Assembly: GCA_018398585.1 (NCBI GenBank) | Contig: JAGTTD010000011.1 | Span: 15,615,346 to 15,679,345, forward strand | DNA length: 64,000 bases | Direction of reading: 5' to 3' | Source: Simmondsia chinensis | Taxonomy: Eukaryota; Streptophyta; Magnoliopsida; Caryophyllales; Simmondsiaceae | Shown: positions 6,810 through 62,150 of the stretch, one piece after another | Layout: each line of letters starts with the position of its first letter | Position numbering within the stretch: the stretch's first letter is position 1 | Position numbers and translations under genes: made by a program | Notes under the pieces: generated by a model | The model's database searches: none | What the model was told of the DNA's origin: nothing | What the model saw: only the letters and a program-made list of their open reading frames with translations

Positions 6810-9800
6810 ATGACATCGGCAATCAAATATGAGGTAGAGAAGTTCGGAGGTCAAGAAAGCTTTAGTTTGTGGAAAGTCTGTGTTAAAGGACTCCTGACCT
6901 AGAATGGCTTGAAGAAAGCACTGGATGGAAAAGAGAAGAAACCGGATAACATGACAGAGGCTCAGTGGGAATAATTGGATGATAAGGCTCTCATAGCGAT
7001 ACAGATGTGTTTAGCAAATGATGTACTGACAGAAGTCTTGGAGATGAAAACCACTAAGGAGTTGTGGGAGAAGTTGCAAGAGATGTTTTGCCACAAATCG
7101 GTCTCCAATAAACTCGCAGTAAAGCGCTGGTTATTCATGTTTTGTATGACGGAAGGTACATTGCTTAAAAACCATCTTAGTGAATTTAATTCTATAATTC
7201 AAAAATTAAAAGAATTGGATGACACCCATAAGGACAAAGATCAGGCCATGATATTGTTGTGTTCACTCTCTAATTCTTACAAAGGCTTTGTAGAAAGCAT
7301 GATATTTGGTGGTAGGCGAACTATCACAGTTGATGAAATTAAAAGAAATCTAGTAAGTAAAGAAAGAGTTGATAGAGAATTATTTGACTCTGGGAATAAC
7401 TCTGGTAATGGGTTGTTTGTGAAAGGTAGGACTGAGACTAGAAGGTCTGAAGGTGGAAAGAAGTTTAAGTCTAAATCTAGACATAAGAACCTGTTGTGTA
7501 ACTTTGGTCACAAGAAGGGGCACATAAAGAAAAACTATTATAGGCTTAAGAATAAGCAGAAAGATGATAACAGGAATGACCATAAGTCCGCTGAAGCCAG
7601 TGTAGTTGAAGATGAGGAAGATGCTGATGTCCTACTAGTAACCGAGTCACAGACCAGGTCCAGAGATAAGTGGATCGTGGATTTGGATTGTTCTTACCAT
7701 GTTTGTCCTAACAAAGACTGGTTCGCCACTTATAAGTCAATTCAGGGCTGGGTAGCCTTAATGGGCAACGATGTTGTGTGTAAGGTGATGAGTATTGGAC
7801 CAATTCGTGTGAAGATGTTTGATGGCACTATCAGGACACTTAGCGACATGAGACACGTTCCAAATTTGAAAAAGAACCTTATCTCTCTAGGTACCCTTAA
7901 GTCCAATGGGTACAGGTACACAGCTGAAGGTGGAGCTATAAGGGTCAGTAAAGGTGCATTGATTGTAATGAAGGGTAGAAGGATAGGAACCTTGTATGAG
8001 CTTGTAAGTTCTACCATGACAGGGTTAGTGGCTGTTTCTACATCGTCTATGACCAAGGTTGTTAGAATTGGGATTCTACCTAGGATCGTTAGGGGTTTAT
8101 AGAATCGGACTCGTAGGATCGAATCGAAAATCGTAAGATTCTACTTTTAAGGCATAAAATCAATCTTGAACCTTCACCCATCAGTTTAACCTTTTTGAAA
8201 AGTTAGTTCTTTGACATAGTATTAGAGTCTTATTAATCCAGATATAGTTCAAATACCAATAACCTCCACTTTTAATATTAAATAATTTAAGCACGTGATA
8301 TAAGGTTATAACTTAAAATTAAGCTTAATTTAAGTTTCTTCAGAATATATAAACATTTAATTTTTCTTTTACTTCAAGTTAAAAAAGTATGTTCATTTAT
8401 AATATATGTATGAAGTTTTTACTTTTTAACTTTTTATGTATGTATGGTTGGATCGAGGCAGGATCAGTAGAATCGTAAAATCGTATTATGATCCTATCTA
8501 TTAGTTTTGTCTAATATCAATGGATCGTAAGATTCTACGAAATTAAGATTCTACTTAGGATCTGGATCGATCGATGATTGTGGGATCGTAGAATCGTGAG
8601 ATTCTAAGATCCGGATCGGGAGTTTAATAACCATGTCTATGACAGATACACAGATCACTAAGATGTGGCACATGATATTGGGCCATATGAGTGATAAGGG
8701 GCTGTCAGAGTTGAGTAAGAGGGGTCTGTTATGTGGTCAGTCAACTGGACTGGTGGATTTTTGTGAGCACTCTGTATATGCGAAGCAGAAGAGAGTCAGC
8801 TTCAAGCAGGCAGTGCATCAGACTGAAGGAAAGTTGGACTATATACATTCAGATTTGTGAGGACCTTCCAGAGTCGCTCCCAAAGGAGGTTCCGGGTACT
8901 TACTAACGTTAATTGATGATTATTCACGCAAAGTTTGGGTCTATTTTCTTAAGCAGAAAAATGAAGTCTATGAAGTCTTCAAGAATTGGAAGACATTGCT
9001 TGAAAAATAGACAAGGAAGCTGATAAAGAGGTTGAGGACAAATAATGGTCTTAAGTTTGTTGAGGGTGATTTCCTCAAATTCTGTGAGAACCAAGGCATT
9101 GTCAGACACAGGACTTGTACAGGTTGACCTCAACAGAACGGAATGACAGAAAGAATGAATAGGACATTACTGGAGAAGGCTCGGTGTATTCTTTCAAATG
9201 CAGGACTAGGGAGAGAATGGTGGGCAGAGGCAGTTAACATGGCTTATTATCTAGTGAATCGATCTCCTCATTCATCGCTTTAGTTGAAGATTCCAGAAGA
9301 GGTATGGTCTGGTTCTCCTGCTAATTATTCTTATTTGAAGATATTTGGTTGTTCTGCTTATGCTTATGTTAATGATGGAAAGCTAGAGGCTAGGGCCAAG
9401 AAGTGTATCTTTCTTGGTTATACGTCAGGTGTGAAGGGATATCGTTTATAGGATCCAAAATCTCATAAATTTCTGACTAGTAGAGATGTTACATTCGATG
9501 AGTCTGCTCTGCTACATCCACCACACACGCCCTCTTTAGTTCGTGAATCAGTTCAGGCGCAGAAGCTTGATGACAGTCAGATACAGTCAGAAAGTTCAGA
9601 TCAGCAGCAGGTAGTTCAGTTTGAAAGTATGCAAGCACCTCCAATACAGGTTTCTGATGAGATTGATGAAACAGAAACAGGTCAACAAGTCGAGCAGCAT
9701 ACAATTGCAGGTGGTAGGCAGAGAAGACAGATTAGGCCGCCACAAAGATATGGGTATGAGGAGATGATAGCCTATGCCCTTATTACAGCTGAAACAGTGG

Positions 9801-11370
9801 AAGACAGTGAACCGTCTTTATATTCAGAGATCGTATCGAGATCTGACTCAGATAAGTGGCTTATGGCCATGCATGAAGAGATGGAGTCTTTGAAGAAGAA
9901 CCAGACTTGGCAGCTAGTCAAGCCTCAAACAAGAAAAAGAGTCATTGGGTGCAAATGGGTCTTCAAATGAAAAAAGGCATTCTTGGAGTGGAAGATGCAA
10001 GGTACAAGGCTCGGTTAGTAGCTAAAGGCTACAGTCAGGTACACGGTGTTGATTTTCATGATATTTTTTTACATGTTGTTAGACATTGTTCCATATGAGC
10101 GATACTTGCTTTAGTAGCTATGCATGATTTAGAACTTGAGCAGTTAGATGTGAAAACTGCATTTTTGCATGGTGAGGTAGAGGAGAGTGTTTACATGCAT
10201 CAGCTTGAAGGCCTCATTGTTGAGGGTAAGGAAGATCATGTTTGTTTATTGAAAAGATATTTGTATGGTTTGAGGCAATCACCAAGACAGTGGTATAAAA
10301 GATTTGATGAGTTTATGATTAGTCATGGGTTCTTCAGAAGTAAGTATGACAGTTGTGTGTACTTCAGGAAGACATATTCAGGTTCTTTTGTTTATCTTCT
10401 GTTATATGTTGATGATATGTTAATTGCAGCTAAGGACATGACAGATATTGATGATTTGAAAACAATGTTGAAAAGCGAGTTCGAGATGAAGGACTTAGGA
10501 GCAACTAAGAAGAATCTTGGCATGAAAATCAGTAGAAACCGAAAAGCAGGAAAGTTGTACTTGTCTTAGGAGAAGTACATTGAGAAGGTTCTGGACCTAC
10601 TTCACATGAAGGATGCTAAACCAGTTAGCACTCCCTTACCAGCTCATTTCAGGCTTTCAGCATTGGATTCGCCTCAGACTGAGGAGGATGTCAGGTACAT
10701 ATCACAGGTCCCTTACTCTAGTGCTGTTGGTAGTATTATGTATGCTATGGTATGTACATGTCCAGATATTGCTTATGCTATGAGCAAAGTGAGTAGATAC
10801 ATGGCGAATCCAGGAAAGGAGCATTGGCACGCTATCAAATGGATTCTCAAGTACTTACGTGGCATTGCTAATGTTTGTTTGGAATTTGGGAAAAGTAAAT
10901 GCTGTTTAGTAGGGTATGTTGACTCAGACTATGGTGGAGACCTCGATAAGAGGAAATCTATATCCGGTTATGTGTTTTGTTTGGGAGACAGTGCTATCAG
11001 TTGGAGAGCTTGTCTACAATTAGTTACTACATAGTCGACTACCGAGGCCAAGTATATGGTAGTTACAGAAGCATTTAAAGAAGCTGAGTGGTTGAGATGT
11101 TTGATTAGTGAGATCAGTGTTCAGGGTACTGTTGGAGTTTACTGTGATAACCAGTCAGCAATTCACCTAGCTAAAGATCAGATGACGCATCATGACAGAA
11201 CGAAGCATATTGGTCAAGCATCATTTTATTAGAGATCTGATTGATGAGCGGAAGGTGGAGTAAAAAGAAGATTGGTACTGAAGATAATCCAGCAGATATG
11301 TTCACTAAAGTTCTTCCTGACAGGATCGAATTTAGTTGGACTTACAGTTTCAGTTTGTTAACCCTGGCGT
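6810..11370 (+). pseudogene. Copia gag-pol polyprotein remnant
   Basis: Translation from ATG 6810 gives, in order: UBN2-type gag (to about 7480); a damaged CCHC knuckle near 7497 (second Cys to Phe, last Cys to Tyr); and a damaged protease motif WIVDLDCS where WIVDSGCS is expected. Then come the GAG-pre-integrase block (MWHMILGHMS, 8662 onward), integrase (8860-9480, with PQQNGMTERMN), RT (about 9850-10570, with intact YVDDM near 10408) and RNase H (about 10915-11240, with the EAKY and DNQSAIHLAKD blocks). More than ten in-frame stops are present, most explained by CAG to TAG, CGA to TGA or TGG to TAG/TGA. The MITE at 8054-8634 splits the gene between protease and integrase. It is clearly a dead polyprotein. 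The exact copia lineage is not assigned. Confidence 0.92.
8054..8634. mobile_element. Mutator-like MITE inside the copia pol gene
   Basis: The copia reading frame is interrupted for exactly 581 bp. The 9-bp sequence GTCTATGAC stands on both sides (8045-8053 and 8635-8643), and removing one copy plus the insert restores the frame. Nine-base duplications are the hallmark of Mutator-type transposition. The termini are imperfect inverted repeats (GGTTGTTAGAATTGGGATTC versus GGTTATTAAACTCCCGATCC read from the other end), with repeated GGATCGTAGAATCG-like blocks inside both ends. It encodes nothing, so it must have been moved by a transposase from elsewhere. Confidence 0.8.
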
Positions 11371-15392: not shown

Positions 15393-18300
15393 GTATGTCT
15401 CCCTTTTGGGGAATCGGAAATGTCATTTTTGAAATCAAGATTGAAGTTAGTAGATAGGATGTTCGATTTTCTAAACAAGATATATCGTATATATCCATAT
15501 GTGATGATAGTTTTTTTTGCTAGGGAATTCGTTATATTCTCTTTATTGCGAATTGTACTTTTGGTGCTAGAATTGTCATACTTCAAAATCGAGATTGATG
15601 TTATTGACGTTGATATAAGCCCCAAAACAAGCATTCCACAGCAGTGGGACAACAACCACAACAAGCCCAGTGCCTCAAAGAGGCTCCAGTTGAGGCAAGG
15701 TTTGGGGAGAGTGAACTGTATGCAGCCTTACCCCTAAAGGGTGCTACCTCGTAGGGAGACTGTTTCTGAAGGCCCCCTAACTTTGAAAAGTAAAGGCTAA
15801 TAAAATCCAATTCAAATAAGCAGTACTAGACATGCAAGTAACAATACGGCTGTAAAATAGCAAACCTGCAAGCCTAAGGGCGCTGTGAACTAGCATCGGT
15901 GTGCTCCTCTCTCCTACCAGCTGTGTCGACCGCATGTATTTTTAATTGCCACTTAACTCTATCTAAGGCCATCTCCTCATTAAGATTTAGGTGGGTAAGG
16001 TCTTGTCTAATTGTCTCTATTCAACTTTTTTTTGGTTTGATCTACCTCTCTGGTAGTGTGTATTATATAGTTCACATTTTCTAGCAGGGGCGGTAGTCAC
16101 ATTTTCTAGCAGGGGCGGTAGTCGCTCTCCTCTCCCTAACATGTCCAAACCATCGCGGACGTCACTCCCTAAACTTGTCTTCAATTGGAGCCACGCCTAA
16201 TTTGCTTTTTATAATGTCATTTCTGATCTAGTTCTTCCTAGTATGTCCACACATTCACTGCAAAATCTTCATTTTCGCCGCCTTCAACTTCTGTGTATGG
16301 TGCCGTTTAACTAGCCAACATTCAACACTGTATAACATAGCCAGTTTTACTACTGTCTTGCAGTGTTTTCCCTTCAACTTTAGAGGTAACTTTTTATCGC
16401 ATTGTATCACTAAGTCATCTTTCACTTATGCCATCCCACTTTAGTCCAATTGTTGACATCCTCATCAGCTCCGCCATCTTGCTGCACTGTGGAGCCCGAA
16501 TATATGAAACATTCTTCTTTCTGTATGCATTTTGTCTTTACATGCTCTGCGCTTGGTTTGGTTGTGGTACAAAACTTAAATTCCATATACTCAGTTTTTG
16601 ATCTACGGACCGAAAGCTTTTCGATTCTAAGGAACTTATCCAAAGTTCTAGCTTCTCATTCGTCCCTTTTCTTGACTTGCCCGTCAGTACTATATCATGT
16701 GCAAAAAGCATAGACCGCGACACATGCCCTTGGATGTGCCTAGTGAGCTCGTCCAAAACCAGAATAAACAGGAAAGGGCTCAAGGTTGATCCTTGATGTA
16801 ACCTAACTGTAATTGGGAAAACATCGTTCTCCCCTTCCACTGTACGCACATTGGTTGATGTGTCCTCATACATGTCTTTAATGACTTGAATATATGACAT
16901 GGGGATGCCTTTCTTATCCAAAACCCTCCATAGTACCTATCATGGCATTCTGTCGTACGCCTTCTCCAAACCAATGAAGATTGATTGGTTTTGGGATGGA
17001 ACCTCCTTTGGTGTCTATCATTGGTATCAGAGCCATCGGTCTTGTGTTGTGGATTGCTGGTCATAAGGGAGGCTGATGTCATTCCCCGGTTTTATGAGGC
17101 TCGACGTCACACATTAATTTATGGGGGCCAATGTTTGACGTGTCGCAAAGTCGATTGCCACCATAAATAACATCACGTCTGGTGTCTCAAGTGGTGATGC
17201 TAGTATTATAGTGTTAGCTCGGGACAAGAGGGACTCTAGTGCAAAGCTATGTCTATTGCGAAGTGGTGATATCGAAATTGCAGTGTTTGCCTAGGACTAG
17301 ATATATAAGTGCAAAGCTAGTCCGTAAGGTGTGGATGGTGATGTTAGAATTGTAGTGTTTGTTAGGGACTAGTATCTAGTGTAATGCCAACTCGGGAGGA
17401 CGCGAGATGCAGAGAGTGGTGGATAGATAAAGCCAATAAAGGCATCCCACATTGGTGGGGGGATGACAAAAGCATCGTTATATATACCAATGGAGCTGTT
17501 CCACCCATTGCCCATTAGTTTGATGATGGAACCTTCTTTGGTGTCTATCAAGCATAGTGGATAATGAATTTTCTAACAAGATAAACTGTATACATCTTTT
17601 GTGATGATAGTTTCTTGTGCAAGGGACTCCATTAAATTATCTTGATTAGCTACCTGTAATATTGGTGCTCGGATTTTCATTTTAAAAATCAAGATTGTAG
17701 TGGCTACTATAGTGGATGATTAATTTTCTATGCGAGATATATATTATATATTTAACCACTTATGGATATAGAATTTTGGGTGAAGCAATTATTTGAATTC
17801 TTTAAGTGGGTGTTCTAGTTATCGGTGCCAGAAACTTGGGGTTATACATTGATGTGGTTTTAATGTAAGTTTATAATCGTGTACTCGTAAGCGTATGAGC
17901 AAGTCGTAGCTGTGGCGGGTATGCGGGTGTCGTATCCACAGGGAATCAGTATAAAGTTGGATTTAGTGATTATCGAGCAGTTAAAATCAGGGTTTCTGTG
18001 GAAAATGAGTGGTTAACTAAATTAGAGGAATTAAACAGTAAATTAACTTGTCAATCGATCAAAGCTAATTTAGGGTATGAATTTAGGTTAGCCTAACTCG
18101 AATTGCTTTGTTTGGGAGTGTAATCTTAGGGATCCTGCCCTTGAGAATGGCCACTTCACTTGGTCTGTCTTAGGTAGTAGGATGGTGGCTAGTCGTATTG
18201 ATCGTTTTTTGTGTACGGTTGAGTGGGAAGATCTCTTCCCTAATCCCAGCCAGAAAACTTTAGCTAGGCCCACCTCTGATAATATTCCGCTTGTCCTAGA

Positions 18301-30300: not shown

Positions 30301-33300
30301 AGTTGGTAGTTAGCAACGCATCCCTTTTCCCTCTCATTCAAGACACCTTTTCCCAGAAACCTTGCTTCCCATTGCCAATCCTTTGCCAGTCTCCTTGTCT
30401 TTCTTCCGTCCCATTCTTTTATCCACCATTTTTTATGCTCCACATAATAGTTGCATTGCGCAAGAGGTGTATGAGGAGAGGTGAGGGGATGGGGAGGGCT
30501 GGTAAGAGAAGGGAGGGGGTTAGTGAAGGGTTTGAGAGGCTAGGGAGAAAAGGAGGGGTACTTGTTGGTTCTGGGTGCAGTAAAAATAGGCATTTCTGGC
30601 AGTGGGATAGGTTTGGGGGATAGAGGAAGAGTGGGGAAGGGGATTAGAGGGATATTTGCAAAATCTGGTCTCCTCCTGATCTTTGAAGTTTTTGGTTTGC
30701 AACCAGAATGGATTTCTTTGAAAAAGCGTGTTTAGGCAAACATTGCAAGCCAATCTTGTTGCCTTCATTTCGTAGAGGGGATGCTATGTGGTGGGGTCCA
30801 TGGAATTAAATCACAGTTCACAATCATGGTCGTGGTATTGCGGACCTTTCTGGACGTATTACACAATTTGGTACCGCGATTGTATGATGAAGCGGTTAGC
30901 TCAATATCTATTATGCAACATAATACCTTGATGCCATGATCGAGTTCACCACATGCACTAAAATGAATCTGAAGTATTATAGAAGATGAACTTGCCCTTT
31001 GTTTCATGTACGATCAGTGCTTCTTGTGTATGTTCGGGGAGAGTAGGCTGGGATTGAGTTGCTGCAAGGAGTGATAGAGGGCTTTATGCAATAAGAGCTT
31101 CGATTTTTCTCATCTCTCATTTACTAAATGGATGAATTGAGAAAGTCCTTATTTTTCCATTCCACAAAGTGTTGGGGCAATGTCCTGATTTCTTTCTGTT
31201 TTCCTGGTGGTGAGTGAGGATTTGATCCTTTGAGATACAAGTTGAAAACAGAACTAGAAAAAACATGCGTGTGTTATATCCTAAACGAGCAAGGAAATTT
31301 CATAATTAGCCATCTTAGAGATATTGCGATAGCATTGGTTAGTTTTTTAATGTTGAACGAGATACTTGGGAAATTGGTCAAGTTTCCTGATACTTCCCGA
31401 ACAACCTTCCCAGAAAAGGAAGGACGAAAGTCAATATTTTATCAGATTTGTTAAAAGATTGTTTTTCTTTCCCTTCCTTGACCAGTTGACAGATTTTGGG
31501 CTCTCAAAAGTTGGTCTCATCAACAGCACGGATGATTTATCTGGTCCAGGAGTGAGTGGGGCGTCACTCTATGAAGATCAACCTCAATTATCGGCTTCAG
31601 AGAAGCAGCAGGAAAGAAGGAAGAAGCGTTCTGCTGTTGGTACACCTGACTATTTGGCGCCTGAGATACTTTTGGGAACAGGACATGGTTTGTTGCTTCC
31701 ACTTTCAGTTTTATTCTACTTAGATTCTTGTTGCAACTGATTAGCTACTGAAAGCTGAAGGAGCAGTAAGCTATATGTTTAATTCATTGCTGCATCTTTT
31801 AAGCATGGAATTAAATCACGCTCAGTGTTCACATTGTGGTTGCGCAAGTGGAGTGTTGTAGATATTACATAGTGAGTTGCAGTATCTTGTTGCGTCTTTT
31901 AAGGATATACTTTATCAAGAACGCAACCAAAGAGGGTACCAACATGCCGTCACCTGATCCAATTAGAACTCCGAAGTTAAGCGTGCTTGGGTGAGAGTAG
32001 TACTAGGATGGGTGACCTCCTGGGAAGTCCTCACCCTCAGGTTGGGGGCACTCGGAAACAGCCTTGCTTCGGGGGTAATACCCTGAAGGGGGAAGGCTGC
32101 GTACATCCGCGCCCGCCCCCCCCTTCCCCCCCCCCCCCGCGACCCTGCTTAGGCGGGAGCCCTTAGGGCACTGGTATGTTGCTTTTAGTCTATCAAGAAC
32201 GCATTTAATCTTTTTGTTTGTGGAAAATAAAGAACCATATAATCATTAATTTTTTATCCTTCTTGATATTTTTAAACATGTAAATGCATTTATTCATACA
32301 TTTTGATGAATGCGTTTTGGAGGCCATTATGAAGGTACTATTACGTTACAACCAATTGTAATGGGTAGCTAAGAACCAATTACATGATCTTGGGTATTCA
32401 GCTTCACTTAACCAAATTTGATCTACGCTTCTGTTACCATCCTACAACTGGTCTGATCATGAAAGTATGTTTTTTTTTTCAGGTGCAACTGCTGATTGGT
32501 GGTCTGTTGGTATTATTTTATTTGAACTGTTTGTTGGCATACCACCTTTTAATGCAGAACATCCTCAGGTTACTATTAGTTTCTTACTACTATTTGGTTG
32601 GTGCACTGTTGTCATACATCTTCATTAGCTTTTGCTTTGCTTTGGGAAGAAATCCTTTAAACTTTGAGGTTTTCTACTTATAATATTGAGAAACTGTGGA
32701 TTTGTTAACCTTAAGGTCACAACTATACTCATCGAGAGGGTGAGGTTTTATCGGTACCCCAATCAAGAAGCTTTGTATTATCTTTGTTTTGTGAAAATAG
32801 GGCAATCACGCCTGAATTCAGAGTTGAAGACAATCATTTAATTATATGGGATAAATTGTTGTCATCTAAGTTCCTAATGTTCAAAAAGTTCCTACATCCT
32901 TGCAGTCATGATGACGTAGCTGACAAATTTTCATTGTAGTTTTAAAATGCTTTCATTGCGTGCTATATACCGTTGAAGTCAAGCTTGAATTAATTTGATT
33001 AAGAAATAAAAAGAATAACAATGGTGGTCTTCTAATTGTTTTATCATCTGTTGTCCAGATAATATTCGACAACATTCTCAACCGGAATATCCCTTGGCCT
33101 CAGGTGCCTGAGGAAATGAGCCCAGAAGCACAGGATCTGATTGACAAGTAAGCGATGTGTATCATATTCCTGAAAAAGTTTGACGCATGGCAGACTTGGG
33201 TCTGATTTGATCATGTGCATAGTTTTCTGTAATCTCAGTGATGGGCTGAATAAATTTCTTGTATTTATGTGTAAGAACCCAATGTCTGTTACGATTCTGA

Positions 33301-46752: not shown

Positions 46753-49667
46753 TCAACAATGAAGACTATACCCAAGACTACAACCAAAAATTACAATCAA
46801 AACTAACGATTCGTAACATTCCCTCCCTCTTGAGAAACTTCTTGTCCTCAAGGAGTAAAATTTGGGAATTGGCTCTTCAAGAAATTGCAATTTTCCCGAG
46901 TCACAAAGCTCTTGTTCAAGTTGCTCCGATTCACCAACACTTCCTACATTGCACCACTTCCCACCTGTAGCTTTTCCGGGCCTTGACCGCAACTGGCAGC
47001 AGTAGCAGCATCCCATTAGACTCTGCTTCAGGTGGCTCCCGAGCAACTTTAGTCCCCTTTTTGACCTGCTTTTTAAGTAGAGAGACATGGAACACCGGGT
47101 GAACGTATGAATGTGAAGGTAAGTCAAGCTTGTATGCAACATTGCCAATTTTCTCCAAGATTTTGTATGGACCAAAGAAACGGGCACTTAGCTTGACATT
47201 TCGCCTGACAGCCAAAGAAGACTGTCTATACGGTTGTAATTTAAGGTAGACCATGGCTCCAACTTCATAGCTTTTGTCTACCCTCTTTTTGTCTGCATAA
47301 AATTTCATTCGTGCCCGAGCTTGTTGTAGATTATCTTTAAGCACTTGCACAATCTGCTTTCTCTGCTGCACTAAATCACCTACTGCTGAATCAGGAACTC
47401 CCGGTTGTTGCAGCAACATTGGAGAAGAAGGAGGATAGCCATACAAGGCTTGGAAAAGGTGAAGTGCTAATGGATGCATGAAAGTGAGTGTCGAACCAAT
47501 ATTCCGCTAAAGAAAGCCAATGATTCCACTCTCTAGGCCGTAAGAAAACCATGCTCCGAAGGTATTGCTCCACACATTGGTTCACACATTCGGTTTGGCC
47601 ATCCGTTTGAGGATGATAAGAGGAACTAAGTGCCAACGTTGTACCCATCAATTTGAACAACTCCCTCCAAAATGTACTTGTGAAAATCTTGTCACGATCT
47701 GACACAATGGATTGAGGCAATCCATGTAATTTATAAATGTTGTCAAGGAAGATCCTTGCCAATTTTTCAGCAGTAACAGGTCGAGCAAGAGCAATGAAAT
47801 GGCTATATTTGGTGAAACGATCCACTACCACCCATATAACTTCCTTGCCTTTAGAACTTGGCAACCCCTCAATGAAATCCATGCTAATGTTGATCCATGC
47901 TCCCTCCGGAATAGGAAGGGGTTGAAGGAGACCCTTGTAACGATGATCTCCCAACTTGGTTTGTTGACAAACCTCACAAGCTTTAACATAATCACTCACT
48001 TCCTTTTTCAAGCTTGGCCAACTAAAATAAGCCTTGACCCTTTGATAAGTGCCTTCTATACCGGCATGACCACCCCAAGCTGCATCATGAAAAGCTTGTA
48101 TAATATGATTTCTCAAACTAGTAGCAGATCCCACATACAGCTTGCCATGAACTCTGATCAGGCCCCTCTGCACTGAAATGCCAGCTTCCCGGTTGATCTT
48201 TTCTGCACCATTCACAAGGGCAGTAGCAACACATTCTTGGGCAAAAGGATCACTCTCATGTGTCTTATAAATCTCTTCCATCCATGAAGGAATCACCACG
48301 GTAGTAGCACTGCAGTACCCAACTTTAGTATCCTCAAACTTCCTAGACAAAGCATCGGCTGTAGCATTTTCTTTGCCCTTTCTATACTCAATGTCATAAT
48401 CAAGACCAAGCATCTTCATAAGGCCCTTCTTTTGAATTCTCGTCACAATCTTTTGCTCAAGGAGATACTTGAGGCTTTGGTGATCCGTTCGAATGATGAA
48501 CTTGTGACCATCCAAGTAATGCCTCCATTTTTCAACGACTAAATGAATTGCTAAATATTCTTTCTCATAAGTCGACATAGCTTGATGCTTGGGACTAAGA
48601 GCTTGACTCAAGTAAGCAATAGGCCTTCCATGTTGAGAAAGAACAGCCCCAATACCTGAGCCGCTTGCATCTGTCTCCAAAACAACGCTCTCGATAAAGT
48701 TTGGCATTACCAACACTGGTGCAGCACACATTGCGTACTTAAGAGCTTCAAATGCAGCCTGAGACCACTCATTCCATGTAAATGCATCCTTCTTCAAGAG
48801 TTCTGTTAAAGGTTTGGCAATAGAACCATATCCTTTGATGAATTTTCTATAATACCCGGTCAATCCCAAAAAACCTATCAATTGCTTCAAGGTGATTGGA
48901 ATTGAGCAATCTTGCATTGCTTGGATCTTAGTAGGATCGGTGGACACTCCTTCTTGAGAGATGATATGGCCCAAATACTCAAGCTTTGTCTGAGCAAACG
49001 AACACTTGGACAACTTTACAAAGAACTTGTGTTGCCGCATCACCACAAAGACTTGTCTAAGGTGAGTGAGGTGATCTTCATAAGTGGAACTATAAATTAG
49101 TATGTCATCGAAGAAAACGAGCACTGATCTTCTCAAGAAGGGCTTGAAAACATCATTCATTGCCGCTTGAAAAGTGGCTGGAGCATTTGTTAGACCGAAA
49201 GGCATAACAACAAACTCGAAATGCCCATGATGAGTCTGAAAAGTAGTCTTATATATATCCGGCTCAAGAACTCTGATTTGATGATACCCCTGTCTCAAAT
49301 CAAGTTTAGAAAAGAAGCATGCTCCATATAACTCGTCGAGCAAATCATCTATGACGGGGATGGGAAACTTATCCTTCACTATTAAGGCATTTAATTGTCG
49401 ATAATCAATGCACATTCTAGCCGAGCCATCTTTCTTCTTCACAAGGATCACAGGTGAAGCAAAAGGACTATGGCTTGGTCTAATGAAACTCATGTGAAGT
49501 AATTCCTTAACTTGTCTTTCAATTTCTGTCTTTTGGCCATGAGCATATCGGTATGGCTTAATCTTGACTGGATCAGCATTTGCACGAAGAGGAATGGCAT
49601 GGTCCACACTCCTTTGAGGAGGGAGACTCTTAGGTTGCTCAAAAATGTCCTCAAACTTTTCCACCAA
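46753..49667 (-). pseudogene. Gypsy element 1 pol: RT, RNase H, integrase
   Basis: The main frame is 47391-49667 (758 codons). RT motifs: CIDYRQLNA, FSKLDLRQGYHQIRV, MPFGLTNAPATFQ, VFFDDILIYS. RNase H: LETDASGSGIGAVLSQ and TDHQSLKYL. Integrase: zinc region HAGIEGTYQRVKAYFSWP to ACEVCQQTK, then catalytic blocks SMDFIEGLP, IVSDRDKIFTSTFW and DGQTECVNQ. A frameshift near 47455 moves the C-terminus to 46931-47479 ([38 protein letters not shown]). A second shift moves the last residues to another frame, with a chromodomain-like end. Apart from these two shifts the polyprotein is well kept, suggesting a fairly recent insertion. Confidence 0.9.
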
Positions 49668-49670
49668 GGC

Positions 49671-50819
49671 CTATACATTTGGCTGGATGTCTTGCTGCAG
49701 CTCAACAGAGGAGATCATAAGCAATTGCCCGAGCCATTGTATTGCTTTCTTCTTGATTCGACCTTGTAAACGTTTACCATTAATCAACTTGAGCTGTGCT
49801 TCCTCTGATATGCCTTGCAAGGATACTTTGGTGCCATGAACCTCAAATGCCACGATCATTTTATCAAAATCAAATACAACCGGATTGAAGGTTCTCATCC
49901 AATCCACACCTAGCACCATATCGCAACCTCCCAAGGGAAGAACTCTAAAATCAAAAGTGAATTGATGATCTTGCATAGACCATGGGAATGCTAGGCACTT
50001 GTTTTGAGTTGTTAGGGAGTTGCCATCAGCCACCATCACCGCCAATGGATGAGTCTTTGTCACTTCATGCCTTACTTTCTTTATCAACTTTGGATCAACA
50101 AAACTATGTGTACTCCCACTATCAATAAGAACAATGATAGAGTTTTTTCCAGCCTTGCCTCTGATTTTGATGGTATTATGAGCTCCACTACCGGTCAATG
50201 CCTTCATTGATATCTCAACTTCATCATCTGTCATCTCATCAGGTGAAGAAAGACCATCACTTTCATTTTCAGCCTCTGAATCTTCACTGCTAGAAACAAC
50301 ACCAGCTCGGGAACCTCTTGCATACATTAATGCCTGAGACCTGCACCTATGTCCAGGCCGATATGGTTGATTACAATGAAAGCATAGCCTCACCGAGCTC
50401 CTATCAACAGCACGCTTAAAACCAGAACTAGAACTGCTCTTTTGCTGTGGCCTGTACTTACTGCCATGCTGCTTGTTCTTGTCACTTGTTTGAAGTTGAG
50501 TAGCTTCAATCAATTTTGCCTTGTTGTAAGCACTCGATAATGTCTTGGGACCAATGGCTTTCACCATATTCTTGATCCTTGGCTTCAATCCACTCACAAA
50601 ACATGAGACATAATAGGATTCTGCATCATCCGGAGCAATGGCTAGAACTGACAGCAAATTAGCTCGTAAGTTCTCAAATCTGATCATATACTCTCTTACG
50701 GTTGAGGTTTGGGACAACTTGTTAAAGCTATCCACAACATTAGTTGACTCATCTTCTCCATAACGTTCACACATTTCTTTTACGAATTGGCTCCAAGAAA
50801 TATTTGGTTTGCTCTTCAA
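49671..50819 (-). pseudogene. Gypsy element 1 gag (C-terminal part) and protease
   Basis: 382 codons: gag core (SWSQFVKEMCERYGEDE, REYMIRFENLRANLLS), zinc knuckle LCFHCNQPYRPGHRCRS, acidic stretch, and protease with the active site LIDSGSTHSFVDPKLIKK. One TAG separates it from the pol frame just downstream (VALVEKF...). This may be a single mutation or a natural readthrough site. Upstream, 50820-50943 has several stops and a frameshift in what should be gag. Confidence 0.88.
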
Positions 50820-50943
50820 TAAACTATAATACCATACCTCATGATCACCATGTAAATGTATTGCGGCTAGCTGGAGCTTTTCATCTTCAGGTATGTTATA
50901 ATATAGAAAATACCGGTCACAATCTTCTTAGCCATTATTCAGG

Positions 50944-59448: not shown

Positions 59449-59610
59449 TGATGTGGTTTTAATATGTGTTAAAAACTGTGCACTCGCAAGCGTACGATCA
59501 AGTCGTAGCTGTGGCGGGTATACGCGTGTCTTATTTGAAGGGAATCAGTGTAAAATTCGTTTTAATTGATGTGAGTAGTTAAAATTTGAGTTCTGGTTGA
59601 GAAGATGACT
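59449..59610 (-). repeat. Truncated element-X-family LTR leading into the minisatellite
   Basis: It begins TGATGTGGTTTTAATATG and carries 'ctgtgcactcgcaagcgta', 'agtcgtagctgtggcggg' and 'gggaatcagtg'. After about 150 bp it passes into the tandem array without a clear border. Confidence 0.6.
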
Positions 59611-60031
59611 AAATTAGTCAAAATCACTACTCAATTTCTAAAAATCACCTAATTAGACAAAATCATCACTAAATTATTCAAATTCACTTAATTACTCAAA
59701 ATCACTACTTCAAATCACCTAATTACTCAAAATCACCCTTCATTTGCTCAAAATAACCTATTTACTAAAAATCACCATTCAATCACTCAAAGTCACCTAA
59801 TTACTCAAAATCCCCATTCAATTAGTCAAAATCAGCACTCAATTACTCAAATTCATCTAATTACTTAAAATCACAACTCACTTACTCTAGGTCACAGATT
59901 TACTCAAAATAACATTCAATTACTATAAATAACCTAATTACTAAAAGTCACCATTCAATTACTTAAAATCACTTAATTACTCCAAATAACCTAATGACTG
60001 AAAAATACTATTTAATTACATAAAATCACCT

Positions 60032-60225
60032 ATAACAACAACAATCCCAGTGCCTCAAGGGCTCCCGCAAAAGCAGGGTCGGGGGGGGGGGGGGGGGGGG
60101 TAGATGTACGCAGCCTTCCCCCTTCAGAGTGTCAACCTGAAGAGAGGCTGTTTCCGAGGACCCCCAACCTGAGAGGTAAGTCTTCATCGCCTCATGGAGA
60201 CTTCTGAGCAATGAGCTGTGAGCAA
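60032..60225 (-). mobile_element. Au-type SINE inside the minisatellite
   Basis: The minus strand carries CTCTCAGGTTGGGGGTCC, GGGGGAAGGCTGCGTACAT, a long C run (60080-60100 as G on plus), GACCCTGC, GCACTGGGATTG and terminal TTGTTGTTAT. This is the same body as at 32030-32190. Its 5' head (GCTCATTGCTCAGAAG...) is not clearly 5S-like. The TSD cannot be read because both flanks are satellite. Confidence 0.75.
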
Positions 60226-60459
60226 CATTCAATTACTCAGAATCACCTAATTACACAAAATTACCATTTAGTTACTTAAATTCACCTAATTACTCAAAAT
60301 TATCACTCACTTATCTAAATCACCGAACTACTCAAGATCAACATTCAACTACTCCAAACAACCTAATTACTAAAAATAACCATTCAATAACTAAAAATCA
60401 AGTAATTATTCAAAATCACCACTCACTTAGTCCAAATCACTTAATTACTCAACTACAAA

Positions 60460-61080
60460 AGGGGCTTTTTTTATTTATTTTATTTTTTACTAAAACCGCT
60501 TACACTTTAGGTCCGATTTAGAAAAAAAACCACCTAACTTTTCTAATTTTTCATGTTCATACCCAAAATTTTTAAAAATTTTCAAGATCACACCTAATTC
60601 TAATATCGTTAAATTTCTGTTAAAATAAATAGGAAATGACTAAACTACCCACAATAAAACCTTTTTTTGTTTTTGTTTTTAATGAATTAAAAATTCACTT
60701 TTTTTTTGTTTGAAATAATTAGAATTTTCCCATGACTCATAGCTAAACTTGAAATTTTTAATTATCTTTTCAACTTAATTTTTTATTTTTATCACTTTTT
60801 TCTTCAGTGTTTAAAAATTTTTGTTTAATAATTGGGATTTTTCAATGAATTATAAATAATTTTTCAAATAAAAAATACTTATAAATATTTTTGTGGCAAA
60901 AGGCTATAGCAGTGCGCCAAACCTTTAACAATTTTACAATTTCAGAGGTCAAGGATAATTTCATTTGTAAAATACATTACTTAATATAATATAATTAAAT
61001 TAAATTAAACTTGGTGTTTGCATGCATTTATACCCCTAAATGTGGCGTTTTATTTGACCAAAAGTAGAAAACCCTTACAA
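60460..61080. mobile_element. AT-rich insertion in the minisatellite, unclassified
   Basis: About 620 bp of non-satellite DNA with the array continuing on both sides, so it is an insertion. It has long A/T runs, 'atacccctaaatgtggcg' near the right end and 'ctacaaaaggggc' at the left. Terminal inverted repeats are weak. A MITE is possible. Confidence 0.4.
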
Positions 61081-62150
61081 AAAATCATCATTCAATTGCT
61101 CAAAATCACCTAATCACACAAAATAATCACTCAATCAATCATGCACCTAATAATTCAAAATTATCACTTACTGACTTCAAGTCATCTATTTACAAAAAAA
61201 TCACCATTAATTTATTCAAAATCACCAAATTACACAAAATCACCATTCAGTTACTCAAAGTTACCTAATTACACAAAATCACCACTCAATTATTCCGAAT
61301 AAACTAATTACTCAAAATCATCACTCACTTACTCCAAATTACCATATTACTTAAAATCACCATTCAAATACACAAAATTTCGTAATTACTCCAAATCACT
61401 ACTCAGTTAATCAAATTCACTAAATTACTCAAAATCATCACTCACTTACTCCAGATCACCATTCAATTACTCAAAATAACCTAACTGCTTAAGAACACCA
61501 TTCAATTACTAAACATCATCTGATTACTCAAATCACCAACCACTTATTCCAAATGATCTATTTACTAAAAATCACCATTCAATTATTCAAAATAACCTAA
61601 TTACTAAAAATCACCATTTGTTACTCAAATTCACCTAATTACTTAAAATCACCAGACAATTACTACAAACCATTTAATTACTCAAAATTACCATTCAATC
61701 ACTCAAAATAACCTAATTACTAAAAATCATATTTTTAATTACTCAAAATCAGCAGCCACTTACTCCAAATCACTTAATTACTGAAAATCATCATTCAATT
61801 ACTGAATTAGTTACTCAAATTCACCTAATTACTCAAAATCATCACTCACCTACTCCTAGCACCTAATTATACAAAATACCCGCTGAATAATTCAAAATAA
61901 CTTAATTACTGAAAGTCACCATTCAATTACTAGATATCACCACTCACTTATTCCAAATCACCAAGTTACTCAAAATCACTCACTTCAAATCACCTAATTA
62001 CACAAAATCACCATCAATTACTAAAAATCTTGTAAACACTAAATGTAACCAATCACTTACTCAAAATCATCACTCTTCCACTTCAAATAACCGAATTACT
62101 CAAAATCACTATTCAATTACTCGAAATAACCTAATAACTAAAAGTCACCA

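Follow-up and report, generated by a model that had tools for sequence, protein, structure and literature searches.

The Element in the Kinase Intron

The window, a stretch of 64 kb from the jojoba genome, contains at 31926-32190 (+) a SINE of 265 bp with a perfect target-site duplication of 13 bp on either side (Table 1). The two copies of TATCAAGAACGCA are identical at 13/13 positions, and no other 13-bp direct repeat with this spacing is present in the 64 kb, so that the duplication proposed in the original prediction is found as described. The element lies in sense within an intron (31688-32482, limits by our own reading) of a gene encoding an IREH1-like kinase, which also agrees with the setting proposed earlier. 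When the hand-joined IREH1-like protein was placed in a tree with 29 others, it grouped with the sampled Caryophyllales with a support of 1.0 and no nearer placement.

The 5' part of the element is derived from 5S rRNA. Rfam model RF00001 matches the window at 31926-32043 (+) over model positions 1-120 with 69.9 bits, and no second 5S match was found in the window using Rfam, also at E<=0.1. The first base of the element is 5S base +1, and the register is gapless against both generic plant 5S and the 5S genes of the host. A 5S head had been predicted with a length of about 100 bp; the head and its strand stand, while the length is corrected to 107 nt, since the window copy passes from 5S base 107 to the SINE body at 32032/32033. 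The generic plant 5S sequence used as reference is assumed, as are the limits of box A (5S 50-64), the intermediate element (67-72) and box C (80-97). The middle part of this reference agrees with a 41-nt probe given in the relevant passage of PMC11121585. Compared to the reference, box A and box C of the window copy have no mismatches and the intermediate element has one (C67T), in agreement with the good preservation of the boxes claimed earlier. At positions 81 and 95 of the box C region, the window copy has retained G and C instead of the A and T of the host genes, and it has T at position 79.

Table 1. Features of the window that relate to the 5S-headed SINE
Feature	Position	Strand	Evidence or remark
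Older headless body copy	15655..15777 (about)	-	47/133 aligned bases differ
TTTT, 12 nt 5' of a duplication starting TA	31897..31900	+	sequence; possible RTE-type insertion signature as described in part of PMC13295347
Left target-site duplication, TATCAAGAACGCA	31913..31925	.	perfect match to 32191-32203
5S rRNA-derived head, 5S bases 1-107	31926..32032	+	Rfam RF00001, 69.9 bits; gapless register with plant and host 5S
Box A region, 5S 50-64 (assumed limits)	31975..31989	+	0 mismatches to generic plant 5S
Intermediate element, 5S 67-72 (assumed limits)	31992..31997	+	one change, C67T
Box C region, 5S 80-97 (assumed limits)	32005..32022	+	0 mismatches to generic plant 5S
SINE body, with C-rich tract at about 32108-32139	32033..32177	+	common to other subfamily A copies and two headless window copies
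3' tail, GTTGCTTTTAGTC, with T4 stretch	32178..32190	+	sequence
Right target-site duplication	32191..32203	.	perfect match to 31913-31925
Headless body copy within tandem-repeat region	60033..60173	-	27/144 aligned bases differ

The body is itself a repeat, since two headless copies of it are present within the window. No predicted protein was found to span the 5S/SINE junction, the seven matches each covering the 5S part alone, and neither the junction nor the body was found at any place in the viral and genome contig collections. One further viral scan returned three viral contigs, sharing just short stretches of 17-19 bases.

A Dispersed SINE Family

The original prediction left open whether the element belongs to a family or is a one-off chimera, and proposed a genome search with 31926-32190. 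This search of the host's own genome, 831 Mb in 35 contigs, gave 6,257 first-look candidates, and scoring of the best 40 returned at least 41 matches: the window element, 39 near-full-length places and one partial match. Among these best-scoring places, the 39 other copies have the same head and junction at 85-90% identity and are found on many contigs. An Rfam 5S match was obtained for 20/20 further copies submitted, out of the 39 fetched. Using a strict test, clear target-site duplications of 10-22 bp were found in 24/40 copies, the window's included, and all of them are different; the shuffled controls gave 0/120. The remaining 16/40 copies lack a clear duplication.

A template switch onto 5S RNA that took place just once, at this locus, would have given a chimera and no family, as the single 5S-headed copy in the 64-kb window might suggest. 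This is ruled out by the 39 other near-full-length copies that share the junction and have many different duplications, and it retains virtually no probability; of the two outcomes left open, it is thus the family that holds. Nor is there anything to favor a 5S pseudogene that happens to adjoin a SINE. One duplication encloses both parts and the junction recurs elsewhere with other duplications, so that head and body have moved as a unit, as was claimed, and the reading as neighbouring repeats is refuted, its probability being negligible. The window element belongs to a SINE family: the copies are short, non-coding and dispersed with variable duplications, and the head is derived from a Pol III-transcribed RNA, identified as 5S by Rfam.

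The abundance was estimated from twenty 10-kb stretches taken at the fixed position 5.00 Mb of 20 of the 35 contigs, a small and non-random sample. These 200 kb contain eight 5S-headed copies, one of them without its 5' part and one cut at the end of a stretch. Rfam at its curated threshold found seven of the eight independently and no other 5S in the sample. The density of about 40 per Mb corresponds to about 33,000 copies genome-wide, a rough figure with a Poisson 95% range of 14,000-66,000.

At one place a partial copy of subfamily A (L041; query 1-139; G000:C13:1510430-1510568) lies just 5' of a near-full copy at 1510592-1510840 in the same orientation. In the sample and the window, headless body copies are about as numerous as headed ones (L053, L060, L067, L057, and L068; 60033-60173 and 15655-15777). 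Upstream of the headless copy at 60173, similarity to 5S was not above that of shuffles (p about 0.6), and no tRNA match was found. Several headless copies (L053 and L060) have ATGCTT-rich sequence upstream, which may represent a different head or the 3' region of a LINE.

Subfamilies

At least three subfamilies can be distinguished: A, to which the window element belongs, and B and C, which came from the 200-kb sample. Of 252 aligned bases, 17 distinguish the window copy from the A consensus, and six of these are among the first 106. A search with a B copy (L055:7150-7425) gave 39 other copies and a fragment among the best 40 of 8,096 candidates, and a search with a C copy (L063:1105-1366) gave 39 other copies among the best 40 of 9,259; the places are again spread over many contigs. 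The first-look candidate numbers (6,257; 8,096; 9,259) are loose and surely overlap. For B and C the query copy and 20 of the 39 others were examined, and duplications were found in 14/21 B copies (controls 1/63) and 15/21 C copies (controls 0/63), leaving 7/21 and 6/21 without a clear one. The copies examined are those most similar to each query, and the subfamily structure and the rates thus give a biased picture.

The bodies of A, B, and C are closely similar. Bases 1-25, the junction and the tail set B apart from the other two. From the 3' end of 5S, B has retained GTGTTGC, and its tail is (TTG)n; the tails of A and C are T-rich and not (TTG)n. In the C consensus, 5S continues to base 119 and is directly followed by TCAGGTTGGGGG. 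Judged from the sequences, this junction of a complete 5S (1-119) to the body is probably the ancestral one, of which A would have lost about 8 nt. The A bodies have a long C-rich tract of about 30 bases in the consensus (32108-32139 in the window), whereas the B and C consensus have only about seven C.

Relationship to the 5S Genes of the Host

The 5S genes of the host are found in two arrays on contig C8, near 4.69 and 6.41 Mb (L091-L094 and L115). The first gave 24 complete-gene readings from four overlapping loci, about 11 units, of which 20/24 are identical, and the second has five genes. Both arrays differ from the generic sequence by A3G, C39T, G81A, C95T, and T116C. The G81A and C95T changes fall in the normally conserved box C region. 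The arrays also differ from each other, for example by T12C in one and A24T and T106C in the other.

The heads share several of the host-type substitutions. T39 is present in 38/40 A, 21/21 B, and 20/21 C copies, and all 21 C copies have A81 like the host, whereas G81 prevails in A (36/40) and B (20/21). The 3' end of 5S in C, GCACCCC, is the host's own. C95, which is T in the host arrays, is on the other hand kept in most heads (A 38/40, B 17/21, C 20/21). As the host-type substitutions are present and C95T mostly absent, the donor was probably the 5S of the host lineage at a time when C95T had not yet been fixed.

A Cassandra retrotransposon, a 5S pseudogene or a similar element containing 5S might have supplied the head instead of 5S RNA itself. 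According to the passages on its structure in PMC10853983, the Cassandra element of plants has a conserved core of the 5S promoter, bases 1-40 of the heads are strongly altered, and C79, which neither host array has, is found in most heads (A 31/40, B 18/21, C 19/21). Against such a donor, the heads begin at 5S +1, 5S is complete at its 3' end in C, where it reaches base 119 and ends in CACCCC as in the host, and the core shared by Cassandra elements is about 70 bp and never at the LTR end in the same passages of PMC10853983. An origin of this kind is therefore unlikely.

It is somewhat easier to imagine, but still doubtful, that 5S was captured more than once and that B is a fusion independent of A and C. 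B is unlike the other two in its first 25 bases, its junction and its tail, and its A24T, which is also found in the second host array, makes a separate capture possible. The close similarity of the three bodies and the C79 common to the heads of all three, which both host arrays lack, argue for one capture.

Conservation of the Promoter Region

The changes in the heads are unevenly distributed. When the window head is aligned to generic plant 5S, 19 mismatches fall in bases 1-40 and a single one in 41-106. This contrast was reached by 0/20,000 permutations, and by 1/20,000 when bases 1-10 are left out. Alignment to the species' own 5S, which had also been proposed, gave 19 mismatches in 1-40 and three in 41-106 (positions 67, 81, and 95). 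Between the A consensus and host 5S, mismatches are present at 15/40 positions in 1-40 and 3/66 in 41-106 (p=2e-5). Two of these three are the positions changed in the host genes (81 and 95), and compared to generic plant 5S there is 1/66 mismatches in 41-106. C has 13 mismatches to host 5S in 1-40 and two in 41-119. The element has a 5S-derived 5' end containing box A, the intermediate element and box C.

Copies of A diverge from their consensus at 4.4% of cells in 41-106, compared to 7.6% for 1-40 and 6.7% for the body, and the corresponding values within B are 4.5, 6.7, and 6.4%; these rates are only indicative, because the copies were picked by similarity to the query. Repeated promoter-dependent amplification is expected to conserve 41-106, where the promoter lies, and a nearly unchanged 41-106 next to a heavily altered 1-40 fits a lineage maintained by its Pol III promoter.

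Proposed Origin and Retroposition

It is very probable that the element is a subfamily A copy of a large SINE family whose head comes from host-lineage 5S, and it would spread by the following cycle. Pol III with TFIIIA and TFIIIC would use the internal type 1 promoter in the head and start at element base 1, corresponding to 5S +1. The reverse transcriptase of an RTE-clade LINE would take the SINE RNA by its body and tail, and target-primed reverse transcription at a new site would then duplicate about 10-22 bp. The founder of the family was probably made by a LINE reverse transcriptase that was copying a body RNA and jumped onto a complete 5S RNA at the 3' end of the latter, so that 5S(1-119) became joined to the body. 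C would have kept this founding junction, and A would afterwards have lost about 8 nt.

An RTE-type insertion signature is described in part of PMC13295347: the duplication starts with TA and is preceded, at a distance of about one helical turn, by a T-run. In the A and B copies with duplications, the only ones used here, TTT is found at -18 to -7 in 25/38, compared to 12/38 for a distant interval (p=0.0055), the intervals having been chosen after that paper. The signature is partial, since only 12/38 of these duplications start with TA. (TTG)n is listed as a tail type for plant RTE LINEs and for the TS SINE in the relevant part of PMC3747384. The T-runs 5' of the duplications together with the (TTG)n tails of B suggest an RTE-clade LINE as helper, while the T-rich tails of A and C speak against it.

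Predicted Folding of the Head

The isolated A head (1-120) has a predicted 5S-like fold in which helix I is formed by new bases: CCAA and GAGGG pair with TTGG and CCCTC across the junction, and in B GGGTT pairs with AACCC. The pairing between 5' strand and junction in A is predicted at -13.0 kcal/mol, compared to -13.1 kcal/mol for true helix I, and is reached by 29/5000 shuffles. In B the pairing is weak, being reached by 345/5000.

By analogy to the probable use of SRP9/14 by Alu, the head might be a 5S mimic that binds TFIIIA or uL18 (RPL5) and is carried to ribosomes making the LINE protein. For the consensus RNAs in full length, the closed form is predicted to be worse than the minimum-energy fold by 6.1 (A) and 1.9 (B) kcal/mol, and the window element folds no more stably than shuffles (z -0.75). 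The 5S mimic is therefore a bold possibility only, and an improbable one.

Relationship to Other Mobile Elements

The 5S-headed SINEs found in the open-access literature are from vertebrates, insects and a fungus, and comprise fish SINE3, AmnSINE1, lepidopteran HaSE3, springhare Ped-1 and Aspergillus 5S SINEs. Like the jojoba family, they have a 5S head with type 1 boxes and a LINE-related body (PMC3747384; PMC10886601), and for Ped-1 the partner listed in PMC3747384 is BovB, of the RTE clade. SINE3-type elements are animal or fungal, whereas here the plant lineage's own 5S is found on a SINE body of the plant type. In part of PMC10886601, SINE3 is reported to have arisen several times, and likeness to it thus implies no common descent. 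Judged from their likeness to host 5S, with which they share lineage-specific substitutions, the heads point to a birth separate from animal SINE3.

The family is a 5S-headed SINE, a kind known outside plants, and what is new is the plant body, the host-lineage 5S donor and the abundance. The body and 3' end presumably resemble the TS and Au plant SINEs and the Angio-SINE superfamily. The likeness extends to the tails, (TTG)n as in TS and T-rich as in Au, as far as these are listed in PMC3747384. Known plant SINEs are tRNA-derived according to the section on their origin in a 2022 review (PMC9033089), whereas the jojoba element has a 5S head. In plants, the element on record with a captured 5S promoter is instead the TRIM Cassandra, which has box A, intermediate element and box C in the part of PMC10853983 that describes it. 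Cassandra is, however, an LTR element with 5S inside its LTRs, while here 5S is the 5' end of the element and the insertion looks LINE-type. No plant 5S-headed SINE was found among the matches listed in the open-access literature. In the plant tool AnnoSINE, candidates nearly identical to Rfam small RNAs are treated as possibly ncRNA and not as SINEs, according to the relevant passage of PMC8825457, and 5S-headed families could therefore be overlooked.

A 5S-headed family of such abundance would demonstrate that the LINE machinery of plants is able to spread RNAs made from a type 1 Pol III promoter, and that the plant's own 5S RNA is able to found a successful SINE family. It makes it possible to test whether TFIIIA drives a plant SINE, when the capture took place relative to the box C changes of the host, and how plant SINEs exchange their heads without losing the 3' ends.

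Other Contents of the Window

The headless SINE copy on the minus strand near the end of the window is inserted in a tandem array (about 59600-62100) of short, related GTGATTTTGAGTAATT-like units. Judged by eye, the open frames at 6975-11034 (+) and 47391-50927 (-) resemble polyproteins of the Ty1/copia and Ty3/gypsy types.
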